Shown piece by piece: positions 16,066-19,548 of a stretch of 64,000 nt of DNA (the first letter of the stretch is position 1; each line of letters starts with the position of its first letter). The stretch is from Edaphobacter sp. 12200R-103. GTDB lineage: Bacteria > Acidobacteriota > Terriglobia > Terriglobales > Acidobacteriaceae. The notes beneath the pieces were generated by a model that saw nothing but the letters and a program-made list of their open reading frames with translations, was not told where the DNA came from and ran no database searches. Both the position numbers and the translations under genes were made by a program. The stretch spans positions 4,278,001-4,342,000 of the forward strand of contig NZ_CP048114.1 of the NCBI RefSeq assembly GCF_010093025.1, read 5' to 3'.

Positions 16066-16770
16066 GTGTTCGATAGGTCTGAAGTGCTGAAAGTTCAGCA
16101 AAGAATTGCAACCTTAACAGTCCAGGCACCTCGCATCCACATTTATCCCTTTAGCAGACTAGTCAATGCGCCGGCGACTAAGTGGGAAAAGTTGATCTCC
16201 GACCTAGAGGAAAAACAAAGGGTCGTATATCTCTACTATCAGCCGGTTCGTGAAGCGATCGTAAAGCTGACTGCTGCGGAAAGCATAGATCGAGACGGGA
16301 TCTATGCTGAAATGTCTCAGCGAGCATCGCATGTTGTTCATACGCGCACTCAGAATCCGATTAGAGATAATCAAAAGTGTTTTGAATGCTACGAGAAAAT
16401 TTTCCTGCCGCAGGTATCTTCCTTCGAAGAGAGCCTGTTGAAGGTTCCTCAAGTTGAGGGTACGTTTTTCAATGGGGTTATTCTCAAGGGATTGCCACAT
16501 ATGATCGTACGAGATCGACGACGGAGAAAGCGCTTCGTCTATCTTTATCCTTCTGATTGGAAAGATCACGAGCTAGACGCGTACATGGAGCTTTTGACGA
16601 TTATTGTCGAATCTGAATTTGGCGCGGATTCGGCAGATATATGGTGTATGGGCTTGAAAAGCGGGAAGACCATACCTCGACCTCGATCCAAAAGCAGATC
16701 ACGGCAGGCGTGTCGCGATGCAGCGAAACACTTCAAGCGTATGGTTGATGCAGGAATACTCTCGAGCTGA
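16066..16770 (+). CDS. Unknown protein, first gene of AT-rich island
   Basis: A 234-residue protein starting at GTG 16066, with GGGG about 11 bases upstream; no in-frame ATG occurs before residue 84. I do not recognise a family. The N-terminal half is helical (KWEKLISDLEEKQRVVYLYY). The C-terminal half alternates strands and helices: FNGVILKGLPHMIVRD, a basic turn RDRRRRKR, FVYLYPSDW, the helix DHELDAYMELLTIIVE, the strand ADIWCMGLKSGKTI, then a Lys/Arg-rich tail. The order resembles a PD-(D/E)XK-like nuclease fold, but the catalytic Asp and Lys are not where they should be, so this is only a weak structural hint. Base composition is much lower in GC than nrdJ next door. It is 11 bases ahead of the next gene. 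Confidence 0.7.
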   Translation: MFDRSEVLKVQQRIATLTVQAPRIHIYPFSRLVNAPATKWEKLISDLEEKQRVVYLYYQPVREAIVKLTAAESIDRDGIYAEMSQRASHVVHTRTQNPIRDNQKCFECYEKIFLPQVSSFEESLLKVPQVEGTFFNGVILKGLPHMIVRDRRRRKRFVYLYPSDWKDHELDAYMELLTIIVESEFGADSADIWCMGLKSGKTIPRPRSKSRSRQACRDAAKHFKRMVDAGILSS

Positions 16771-16781
16771 TCTTAGGGGCC

Positions 16782-17591
16782 ATGTTAAGAGATAGTGATC
16801 GAAAGAGATGCGAAGATAAATGGTTCGATTCCGATTCGATGGAAGAGAATTTCGATTACAAATTCTTCCTGCGCGTCGCGGCCAAAGATAAGAAGTTTCA
16901 GAATGTGAGTTTCAAGTACACTATTTTCGATTCCTGCTATTTTCGAAAATGTATTTTTGAGTCCTGCGATTTTACAGGATGTCGATTTTTGGCAACCAAT
17001 TTCAATGGCGCCACTTTTTTGGACTGTAAATTTGACTATGCTACTTTTGAGAAAACCCTAATCGCCGATGACGTCCTAGATGTGAACTGTCCCGCCGGAG
17101 AAAATATAAGAGCCAAATTCGCTAGGACACTACGGATAAATTATCAGCAGTTGGGCGAGGCTAGATCAGCTAATAAGGCGATGGGTGTAGAGCTAGACGC
17201 AACGAAAACCCATCTTTATAAAGCCTGGAGATCTCAGGAGCGTTATTTTCGTGCAAAATATCGCGGATTGACGCGGTTACAATTTTTCTTCAGTTGGCTC
17301 AGTTTCAACATCCTCGATGTCTTATGGGGAAATGGCGAGAGTATACTCAAGCTGGTTCGATCGATCCTCATATTTCTAGTTATCCTCGCATTAGTCGATA
17401 CATTCAAGTTCCGAGATCCAGGACTCGTCCGCAGCTATTGGCGAGCTTTGGTTGAGGCACCGCAAACTTTCTTGGGCACACGTGTGCCCCCAAACTTTTC
17501 TCATTCCGCATTGACACTAATCTTGTCGGTTCGGCTGATCATGTTTGGTGCGCTCACTTCATTAATCATTAAGCGATATGGGCGGCGATAG
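16782..17591 (+). CDS. Pentapeptide-repeat protein with two-TM channel-like domain
   Basis: A 269-residue protein. Residues about 40-95 are pentapeptide repeats with the A(D/N)LxF-type rhythm (FKYTIFDSCYFRKCIFESCD, CRFLATNFNGATFLDCKFD), which form a right-handed quadrilateral helix. A charged helical region follows. The C-terminus has two hydrophobic segments (about 190-206 and 243-262). The WGNGES entry before the first helix matches the pentapeptide-plus-Ion_trans_2 channel family. The pore-loop stretch between them lacks the TxGYGD potassium filter and reads APQTFLGTRVPPNF. It may be a degenerate channel or a membrane effector. It overlaps the following nucleotidyltransferase gene by 14 bases and is AT-rich like its neighbours. 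Confidence 0.8.
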   Translation: MLRDSDRKRCEDKWFDSDSMEENFDYKFFLRVAAKDKKFQNVSFKYTIFDSCYFRKCIFESCDFTGCRFLATNFNGATFLDCKFDYATFEKTLIADDVLDVNCPAGENIRAKFARTLRINYQQLGEARSANKAMGVELDATKTHLYKAWRSQERYFRAKYRGLTRLQFFFSWLSFNILDVLWGNGESILKLVRSILIFLVILALVDTFKFRDPGLVRSYWRALVEAPQTFLGTRVPPNFSHSALTLILSVRLIMFGALTSLIIKRYGRR

Positions 17592-18267
17592 TATTATGCA
17601 CATTTATGCCTTTGGGTCGGTTTGTCGAGGAGAGGTTACCCCGGACTCCGATATTGATCTGCTCGCATTGGTAGATGGGCATGATTCTCGATTTTCTGAA
17701 CGTAGTTATTCGATTTATTCATATAAGAAGATGCGAAAGATGTGGGAAGAAGGTAGTCCTTTCGCTTGGCACCTTTTTCTGGAATCTAGACTTTTATTTG
17801 CGGAGGATGGAACAGATTTTCTTGAGGAACTTGGGCAGCCAATGCGATATCGGAAATATGTGGCTGACTGTATCAAGTTTAAAGATGTATTTAACTCTGC
17901 TCGGAATTCATTAGAAACGGGCCGAGAGAGCAGCATATTTGATCTGTCAGCGGTTTTTTTGAGTCTTAGAAATATCTCTACCTGTTATTCATTGGGTGTA
18001 CTGAACGCGCCAATGTTTTCGCGTCATGCAGCCTTGTCCCTAACAGATCCTTTATCTCTTCCGCTAAGTTCGACGTCATATGCCGTTCTTGAACGAGCGC
18101 GTATTCTGTGCACAAGGGGAGCGGGCGCACCCGTCGATGATCAAGAAGCTGAAGCAGTCATGGACGAGTTTGATCGAATTGATTCGTGGATGACATCTAT
18201 TGTGGAGAGTGCGAGAGAACATGAGCGAATTCATCAATCGGGTGGAAGCCCAGCGAAGATTAGTTAA
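17578..18267 (+). CDS. Stand-alone nucleotidyltransferase (MNT / pol-beta fold)
   Basis: A 229-residue protein. The N-terminal motif FGSVCRGEVTPDSDIDLLAL gives the Gly-Ser and Asp-x-Asp of the NTP_transf_2 family, which binds a nucleotide and two metals. The first ATG leaves only about ten residues ahead of the motif, so the usual preceding helix is missing. The candidate third acidic residue may be Glu in WHLFLESRLLF. The rest is helical (about 100-215), with LRNISTCYSL where a HEPN-type partner domain would have R-x4-6-H, but no histidine is in place. It could adenylylate a protein or RNA, or serve as a minimal toxin/antitoxin nucleotidyltransferase. It overlaps its upstream neighbour by 14 bases and the next gene by 47. 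Confidence 0.85.
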   Translation: MGGDSIMHIYAFGSVCRGEVTPDSDIDLLALVDGHDSRFSERSYSIYSYKKMRKMWEEGSPFAWHLFLESRLLFAEDGTDFLEELGQPMRYRKYVADCIKFKDVFNSARNSLETGRESSIFDLSAVFLSLRNISTCYSLGVLNAPMFSRHAALSLTDPLSLPLSSTSYAVLERARILCTRGAGAPVDDQEAEAVMDEFDRIDSWMTSIVESAREHERIHQSGGSPAKIS

Positions 18268-18517
18268 GATTGTCAATCGAAAGCCTCAAAAGGAACCTCT
18301 TTTTTCGCTTTCCGGTTCCTCAATAACTAGATGGAGGTCCGCTAACGGTATCGATCCATCTTCACCTGTTGTGACATTACTCAAGAAGGCATGTGATCGC
18401 GTGTTTGTGATGGCAAATCACAGCGACGCTCCGATTGCTGAGGAGTATCAGCTTACGTTCGAAGAATTGCAATGCATCGGGGACGAGTTGGAAAAAGTTG
18501 TAGCGGCAAATACTTGA
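18221..18517 (+). CDS. Small unknown partner protein of the nucleotidyltransferase
   Basis: A 98-residue protein from the ATG at 18221, which lies inside the end of the nucleotidyltransferase gene (47-base overlap in another frame). It begins with a helix NRVEAQRRLVKIV, has a basic KPQKEP turn, a short SSITRWRSANGI segment and an acidic C-terminal helix (LTFEELQCIGDELEKVV). Size, charge pattern and the strong overlap resemble two-gene toxin-antitoxin or enzyme-inhibitor pairs. No named family was recognised. It closes the AT-rich island; a GC-rich repeat follows after about 50 bases. Confidence 0.7.
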   Translation: MSEFINRVEAQRRLVKIVNRKPQKEPLFSLSGSSITRWRSANGIDPSSPVVTLLKKACDRVFVMANHSDAPIAEEYQLTFEELQCIGDELEKVVAANT

Positions 18518-18569: not shown

Positions 18570-18634
18570 ATGCCGGGTGCCCCATCTTCGTCGCGAAGCG
18601 ACTAAGGTGGGTCATTCGAGCGAAGCTCGAACCC
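18570..18634. repeat. Structured 65-base repeat, copy 1
   Basis: Begins ATGCCGGGTGCCCCATCTTC and contains nested inverted repeats: GTCGC-GAA-GCGAC, TTCGAGC-GAA-GCTCGAA, and CCCATCTT facing AAGGTGGG. A near-identical copy in the same orientation lies at 19482-19548. The two flank the minus-strand gene bdhA. This copy is at the gene's 3' end and could act as its transcript end or stabiliser. Confidence 0.85.
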
Positions 18635-19481: not shown

Positions 19482-19548
19482 ATGCCGGGTGCCCCATCTT
19501 CGTCGCGACGCGGCTAAGGTGGGTCATTCGAGCGGAAGCTCGCACCCT
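19482..19548. repeat. Structured 65-base repeat, copy 2
   Basis: The same element as at 18570-18634, same orientation, with the first 27 bases identical. The stem bases change in compensating fashion (GTCGCGACGCGGC, TTCGAGCGGAAGCTCGC). It lies between the start of bdhA and the start of the plus-strand cupin gene. Confidence 0.85.

Follow-up and report, generated by a model that had tools for sequence, protein, structure and literature searches.

A Hailong-like three-gene cassette with a conserved small partner gene in Edaphobacter sp. 12200R-103

Introduction

Do four closely spaced, AT-rich genes of Edaphobacter sp. 12200R-103 (assembly GCF_010093025.1) belong to one system, and if so, what kind of system is it? 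The genes lie within positions 4,278,001 to 4,342,000 of NZ_CP048114.1, a stretch of 64,000 nt that we refer to as the window and whose positions are counted from its first base. A sequence-only reading had joined all four into a possible undescribed defence- or stress-type island, made up of an unknown protein (ORF1), a pentapeptide-repeat membrane protein (ORF2), a stand-alone nucleotidyltransferase (ORF3) and a small partner (ORF4). Our analysis indicates that the unit has three genes, ORF2 to ORF4, and that ORF1 is a neighbour. We consider it probable, with some reserve, that the three genes are a mobile defence cassette built on the principle of the Hailong anti-phage system (HalA and HalB; Tan et al. 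2025, Nature 643:794), with ORF4 acting in trans for the tyrosine-ended tail of the Hailong enzyme, HalB.

Published papers describe Hailong as a channel defence that is held off by single-stranded DNA (ssDNA) (PMC12657230, PMC13275509). According to these papers, ssDNA oligomers suppress the effector, HalA, and phage-encoded exonuclease activity releases it (PMC12657230), and poly-dA adducts of HalB are mentioned (PMC13275509). The system is also treated in two further papers (PMC12265719, PMC12657218).

Results

Layout of the locus

The features of the locus, in window coordinates, are:

16066..16770, + strand: ORF1, 234 aa, family without known function; adjoins the cassette and is not a member
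16782..17591, + strand: ORF2, 269 aa, HalA-like effector, putative pore-forming channel
17596..18267, + strand: ORF3 from its conserved ATG, 223 aa, HalB-like nucleotidyltransferase (229 aa if read from 17578)
17650..17658, + strand: codons of the catalytic-type D-x-D of ORF3 (D25 and D27 in 229-aa numbering, within GS...SDxD)
18221..18517, + strand: ORF4 from ATG 18221, 98 aa, predicted four-helix partner of no known family
18422..18424, + strand: codon of Ser68 of ORF4, the sole invariant hydroxyl residue of its alignment, in a predicted loop between helices 3 and 4

The ORF list confirmed the arrangement that had been described from the letters: four forward-strand frames, an 11-base gap between ORF1 and ORF2, and overlaps of 14 bases (ORF2/ORF3) and 47 bases (ORF3/ORF4). 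The last is counted from the ATG at 18221; the open frame of ORF4 spans 18200 to 18517 and its first start is a TTG. The 14-base overlap hinges on the start of ORF3. Nearly all ORF3 relatives in alignment A2 begin with MHIYAFGS, which corresponds to ATG 17596; its copy in the database has 223 aa. Because the conserved start is 17596 and not 17578, the overlap becomes a 4-base gap. The low GC content relative to the flanks also held, with values of 0.471, 0.437, 0.451 and 0.458 for ORF1 to ORF4 compared with 0.651 for nrdJ, 0.594 for the short-chain dehydrogenase (SDR) gene on the other side and 0.575 for the whole window. The labels nrdJ and bdhA were taken over from the earlier reading; by eye, bdhA reads as the SDR gene.

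ORF3 is related to HalB and ORF2 to HalA

ORF3 matches the Pfam family NTP_transf_2 at 34 bits (cut-off 21), and it has the polymerase-beta active site, GS...DxD. The D-x-D is invariant in 14 of 14 rows of alignment A5 and in all eight HalB-type rows of alignment A17, and it corresponds to D21/D23 of HalB, for which a PDB title names D21A/D23A. Aligned with HalB-type enzymes by hhalign, ORF3 reached a probability of 99.1 (E 5e-19, 145 columns). A PDB sequence search put HalB chains on top, and HalB ranked first in an NCBIfam scan of ORF3 relatives (6 + 6, HalB-type ones included). When a model of a fused ORF3-ORF4 protein (described below) was used in Foldseek, the top 12 matches were all HalB chains (E 9e-4 to 0.03, solely the first under 0.001), above MntA. 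MntA was the second NCBIfam match of ORF3 after HalB, at 26.1 bits (cut-off 60). PADLOC returned partial matches to candidate families, the best being PDC-S09 (29.7 bits, residues 3-43). There was no match to a SMODS-type Pfam family, the mark of the CD-NTase synthases of CBASS, at E up to 1.

ORF2 passes the Pfam cut-off for Pentapeptide_4/_3. It has an N-terminal pentapeptide-repeat domain at about residues 38-92 and, from hydropathy peaks, two C-terminal hydrophobic segments, at about 186-210 and 244-264, which a loop separates. In hhalign the pentapeptide crown aligned with a two-row HalA alignment at a probability of 96.8. Pentapeptide families were found in 12/12 members of alignment A3 and Ion_trans_2 in 1/12. 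A Priestia relative (L020) matches Ion_trans_2 at 1.4e-7 and contains TTVGYG, and the stretch of this protein that best matches the HalA profile is its channel end. The link between ORF2 and HalA is drawn from the NCBIfam profile, the gene order and this Priestia relative. ORF2 follows the effector plan of a pentapeptide crown with a C-terminal ion channel, where the channel itself is a reading suggested by hydropathy and relatives. Scores for the Qnr-type pentapeptide families were far under their cut-offs (NF033086, 14.8 bits for 240; NF000071, 17.1 bits for 450), and a Pfam scan found no HEPN match in ORF2, in ORF4 or in the effector relatives scanned.

The effector gene is split by an insertion sequence in two of the relatives: by IS30 in Piscirickettsia salmonis (L022:1737-2989) and by IS4 in Salinivibrio kushneri (L023:876-3013). 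In both, the enzyme and ORF4 frames are intact beside the broken HalA-like gene, a pattern that would fit the loss of an effector that is costly to keep.

ORF4 is a constant partner of the enzyme

ORF4 itself matched nothing in Pfam, NCBIfam or PADLOC at E up to 1 and had a single PHROGs match at E 0.21; a Pfam scan of 16 relatives gave three matches, each in one member, the best at E 0.0075. The family is nevertheless coherent. In a leave-one-out test, each of 14 rows was regained by the ORF4 profile at E 1.2e-16 or better, and a nine-row profile picked up five more distant rows at E 1.8e-10 to 1.9e-19. R12, N19, W38 and S68 are invariant in all 38 rows of alignment A11, which excludes the divergent third gene of Priestia and the matches P0167-P0169. 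An AlphaFold2 model (pLDDT 84.6, pTM 0.76) predicts helices at residues 3-18, 32-42, 49-66 and 73-96, placing Ser68 in the loop before the last helix. The sequence-only reading had proposed profile-profile and Foldseek searches of all the proteins; these were informative for ORF3 and the crown of ORF2, as described above, and uninformative for the fold of ORF4. In four of the fetched cassettes ORF4 itself ends in tyrosine (L086, ...ITY; L088 and L089, ...EMY; L022, ...LPY).

The enzyme accompanies ORF4 at every locus where ORF4 was recognised. In one acidobacterial genome (G558) the two are a single protein of 337 residues, in which ORF4 makes up residues 238-334; a nine-row ORF4 profile built without G558 recognises this protein at 2.8e-9. 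This one fusion places ORF4 C-terminal to the enzyme, at the position of the HalB tail, and the enzymes that ORF4 accompanies lack the terminal tyrosine. Across 396 genomes of the phylum, with at most 12 candidates scored per genome, ORF4 was found in two (G000, G558), the same two that have an ORF3 relative at E 1e-10 in what is apparently the same draw. With the HalB profile, G380 and G444 came up in addition as weaker matches; the third gene of each is something other than ORF4. Every ORF, ORF2 included, has similar-length relatives in other genomes: 24 for ORF4 and 1074 for ORF3, compared with 25 for ORF1, the window's own copy being included in the last two counts. Three ORF4 matches and three ORF3 matches fall on contigs of equal size (364895, 4445 and 1346 bases), which suggests that the genes are adjacent there too.

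The three cassette proteins have also diverged in parallel. Over 12 loci, their pairwise distances correlate with Mantel r of 0.947, 0.906 and 0.913, and 0/5000 permutations gave a value as high.

Enzymes found with ORF4 lack the terminal tyrosine

The C-terminal tyrosine of HalB reportedly primes DNA synthesis. ORF3 ends in ...SPAKIS, without a terminal tyrosine, and among the matches listed 0/120 ORF3 relatives carry a tyrosine at either of their two final positions. A tyrosine lies within the last two residues of the enzyme at 10/10 HalB-type loci that are free of ORF4 (L031-L036, L075-L078; last residue in seven, last but one in three) and at 0/21 loci with a recognised ORF4 (the window, L015, L016, L017-L019, L021-L030, L044, L045, L086, L088 and L089; L016 is the fused protein, which ends in PKS). 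These figures count loci and should not be taken as independent lineages, because they include near-copies (L035/L076, L075/L078, L024-L026, L029/L030 and L088/L089). Outside the count are L020 (ending EKIR), L074 (QGY) and L072 (a distant enzyme, AGNR), whose third genes are unrecognised by the ORF4 profile, and L004, L005 and L037, which are short nucleotidyltransferase matches. In a tree of 27 enzymes, where the ORF4 label also covered L020, the nine tyrosine-ended rows share one side of a single branch of length 3.97 with support 100/100.

Two of the ORF4-free loci served as yardsticks for Hailong. L036 exceeds both NCBIfam cut-offs (HalA 435 bits, HalB 272 bits), and its HalB ends in tyrosine and equals a PDB chain over the 69 residues compared; L031 scores 267 bits for HalA and 185 for HalB, the latter just under. 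ORF4 was found in neither, in agreement with Hailong reportedly being a two-gene operon with no third component.

The remaining ORF4-free loci have other neighbours. On plasmids of Bradyrhizobium, Rhizobium, Agrobacterium and a relative (L033, L034, L035, L076, L077), a WYL-domain gene and not HalA lies directly upstream of the HalB-type enzyme, which in L034 exceeds the HalB cut-off at 220.8 bits. On two Klebsiella plasmids (L075, L078) a tyrosine-ended HalB-like enzyme follows a DUF1883 gene, with a WYL gene nearby on the opposite strand, and a Yersinia ruckeri plasmid (L032) also has a tyrosine-ended HalB-like enzyme; HalA was not seen in the fetched stretches of these three. The two weaker phylum genomes differ again. 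L074:584-2539 (G444) encodes a HalA-like protein, a tyrosine-ended enzyme and an overlapping third gene of 130 aa, with a TIR-like frame upstream by eye. L072:1468-2991 (G380) encodes a distant nucleotidyltransferase, an overlapping gene of 117 aa and then a 172-aa protein that by eye looks membrane-bound, a similar layout with another gene order and a different effector.

The cassette is sporadic and occurs on plasmids and viral contigs

The order ORF2-ORF3-ORF4 is seen again in Acidobacteriota, on plasmids of Proteobacteria and within viral contigs, so that the neighbourhood conservation which the earlier reading had asked about exists for these three genes and does not extend to ORF1. In the comparison with close relatives that this reading had proposed, none of the 20 same-genus genomes listed has an ORF3 relative at E 1e-10. 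ORF3 relatives occur in seven plasmid records, all of them read (Janthinobacterium, two Rhizobium, Priestia, Pseudomonas, Piscirickettsia and Salinivibrio). In every record the enzyme gene follows a pentapeptide gene, whole or in remnants, and precedes a small gene, which in Priestia the ORF4 profile does not recognise. Another set comprised 19 plasmid records, nine of which were read; ten of the 19 are from Klebsiella (eight of these 5459 bases long), two of them read.

In viral contigs, ORF3 led to seven loci and a wider ORF3 alignment to eight, two of them new. ORF2 led to 12, eight known from ORF3; of the four new ones, three run on into ORF3 and ORF4 and one stops at the contig edge. A PHROGs scan of ten proteins near cassettes or beside L036 identified an integrase (L024), a replication initiation protein (L026), DnaB-like helicases (L027, L029) and an antitermination protein (L027) near cassettes, and a minor tail protein beside the Hailong locus L036. 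Both L044 proteins and one of L026 fell into families of unknown function, and the L045 protein had no match. The fused ORF3-ORF4 protein was not found in viral contigs, where whole L036 HalB matched its own contig alone. Phage records held no match for ORF3 or for a piece of HalB, and a search of 20,395 E. coli records with the L026 cassette, by megablast only, gave no near match.

ORF1 is a neighbour

ORF1 had been counted as the first gene of the island. Among 200 genomes drawn from the family, it is present in four (G000, G069, G092, G158), and full-length ORF3 relatives are present in G000 and G027 in apparently the same draw, where two further weak ORF3 matches span 30 and 47 residues. 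ORF1 occurs without a detected ORF3 relative in G158, G069 and G092, and G027 has ORF2, ORF3 and ORF4 side by side with no ORF1 found. By tblastn, ORF2-4 were not found in the fetched flanks of five other ORF1 loci (G158, G069, G092, L011 and L012; the G092 contig appears to be L010), and the other fetched cassette loci gave no ORF1 match in any. The four-gene unit was rejected on these grounds. Because each is found alone elsewhere, ORF1 and the cassette seem to be independent elements that have come together behind nrdJ in this genome.

ORF1 lies directly 3′ of nrdJ in G158 and G069, as in the window, and there without ORF2-4. The nrdJ gene is present in 23/26 genomes of the genus, and the approximately 0.9-1.5 kb fetched after it in 22 same-genus genomes besides the window's own contained neither ORF1 nor ORF2-4. 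Within the ORF1 family (the window, L007, L009 and L010-L012) the gene follows nrdJ immediately in 3/6 loci; L011 and L012 as fetched have no nrdJ near ORF1, and the L010 contig starts about 650 bases before it. Downstream of ORF1 are an HD-domain gene in G069 and a 490-aa protein without a Pfam match in L010. A scan of ORF1 found nothing in Pfam, PADLOC or PHROGs and a best NCBIfam match at E 0.12.

Beyond the cassette, a 53-base direct repeat (96% identical; window 18570-18622 and 19482-19534) brackets the SDR gene, and its 37-base core has five copies in the genome with at most two mismatches.

Discussion

The scans and the GC values bear out what had been proposed from the sequence for three of the genes: they encode a stand-alone nucleotidyltransferase, its small partner and a membrane effector, their composition is foreign, and the arrangement resembles that of a defence system. 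The likeness to Hailong lies in a membrane effector with a pentapeptide crown, encoded directly upstream of an overlapping or abutting polymerase-beta nucleotidyltransferase gene with GS...SDxD, and in the setting, since L036 and relatives of the cassette both occur in viral contigs near phage-type genes. The differences are that ORF2 and ORF3 score far under the HalA and HalB cut-offs, that the cassette enzyme has no C-terminal tyrosine and that there is a conserved third gene. Given that ORF2 and ORF3 miss both curated cut-offs, that the enzyme does not end in tyrosine and that there are three genes in place of two, we regard the cassette as a variant of that system and not as a member. The combination of genes had been called unfamiliar. 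For ORF2 and ORF3 this no longer stands, as they are distant relatives of HalA and HalB. For ORF4 it does: neither ORF4 nor a third component of Hailong is described in the parts of the Hailong literature searched, a set that excluded the primary Hailong paper and its supplement. Literature searches on defence by a pentapeptide protein together with a nucleotidyltransferase gave nothing closer. The ORF4 variant is new relative to this literature, and a prior description in the primary paper is possible.

By analogy with Hailong, drawn through homology and gene order, we hypothesize how the cassette may work. In an uninfected cell, ORF3 would make a nucleic acid product (oligo-dA in Hailong), which would bind the pentapeptide crown of ORF2 and keep the channel shut. 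Destruction of the product by a phage nuclease would open the channel, and cell growth would stop or the cell would die ahead of phage release. ORF4 would start or carry the product, or keep the enzyme in its active form. In a bolder version, which we regard as speculative and rather unlikely, ORF4 would be a separate protein primer that supplies the starting hydroxyl in trans, with Ser68 as the candidate, and carries the guard DNA to the channel. A regulatory or stabilising subunit is a plainer reading of ORF4 than a primer in trans. Protein priming in defence has a parallel in DRT9, where C-terminal tail tyrosines serve as primers; DRT9 and the Abi reverse transcriptases share with our proposal a defence through protein-primed, non-genomic DNA synthesis (PMC12483538), but they are reverse transcriptases and not of polymerase-beta type, and so are alike in principle only.

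Several observations weigh against a cassette of the Hailong kind in which ORF4 stands in for the tyrosine-ended tail. The best NCBIfam matches are indeed HalA for ORF2 and HalB for ORF3, but at 24.3 bits for a cut-off of 250 and 45.9 bits for a cut-off of 190. In the PDB search with ORF2, other pentapeptide proteins lead and HalA appears at E 0.4, and the likeness of ORF3 to HalB is confined to the N-terminal side, the first two thirds of the enzyme. The pattern of tyrosine ends and ORF4 is only suggestive and may be coincidence, because on the tree it amounts to one event. L074 does not fit it: this locus combines a tyrosine-ended enzyme with an unrelated third gene and sits on the ORF4 side of the tree on a long, unsure branch. 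L020 has neither a recognisable ORF4 nor a tyrosine end. HalA stands beside the enzyme in just 2/10 ORF4-free loci (L031, L036); in seven of the others a WYL or DUF1883 gene is directly upstream, and L032 has no annotated partner. Finally, confidence in the fused-protein model (pTM 0.46) is too low to show where ORF4 sits on the enzyme; in alignment A16, which is behind this model, three enzyme rows are misplaced over approximately their final 30 residues.

How, then, do other explanations compare? ORF4 could be an accessory regulator that adjusts the release threshold by binding to the channel, the enzyme or the product, with ORF3 starting its own synthesis from a nucleotide. ORF4 has no conserved tyrosine, a terminal one being present in the four fetched loci only, and a small helical protein that is fused to the enzyme, or whose gene overlaps that of the enzyme, is just as characteristic of regulatory subunits. 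We rate this as unlikely but a real possibility, as it leaves the lost tyrosine end of the ORF4-bearing enzymes unexplained, even if that loss was one evolutionary event. The resemblance to MntA-HEPN, a type VII toxin-antitoxin system in which a small polymerase-beta nucleotidyltransferase is encoded next to a toxin gene, suggests a different chemistry, where ORF3 would put a mononucleotide on ORF2 or ORF4 and silence the toxin without making a polymer. The weak MntA match, the PDC-S09 match in PADLOC and the lone invariant serine of ORF4 as a potential acceptor would suit this. However, HalB ranks above MntA in the scans and in Foldseek, MntA stays below half of its cut-off, and the partner is a pentapeptide membrane protein in place of HEPN, which makes a toxin-antitoxin pair of this sort distinctly unlikely.

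The cassette might also have nothing to do with defence and encode a channel that serves the envelope or a stress response and is switched by nucleotides, in keeping with a chromosomal locus flanked by metabolism-like genes. Its sporadic occurrence (two of the 396 phylum genomes), its presence on plasmids and on viral contigs with phage genes, and a composition unlike the host all argue otherwise, and we consider this explanation very unlikely. That ORF1 is a fourth component is scarcely credible: it shares the strand and a similarly low GC content with ORF2, and across the 11-base gap the two may be co-transcribed in the window, but each of ORF1 and the cassette is found at loci where the other was not detected. 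Membership of CBASS or of the Qnr-type proteins finds no support either, given the lack of a SMODS match and the scores under the Qnr cut-offs. Together, the homologies, the conserved order, the parallel divergence, the fusion of ORF3 with ORF4 and the missing tyrosine end lead us to favour the Hailong-like cassette with ORF4 acting in trans.

Hailong established that a nucleic acid product can hold a toxin inactive, as its guard. A Hailong-like branch that is wider and has an added conserved protein would reveal which parts of such a system are essential and how an immune polymerase is primed. Detection could widen as well: no gene of the cassette reaches an NCBIfam defence cut-off and PADLOC matches ORF3 only in part, while relatives of the enzyme number more than a thousand. 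If ORF4 does prove to be a primer, it would be a terminal-protein-like primer within a non-templated immune polymerase.

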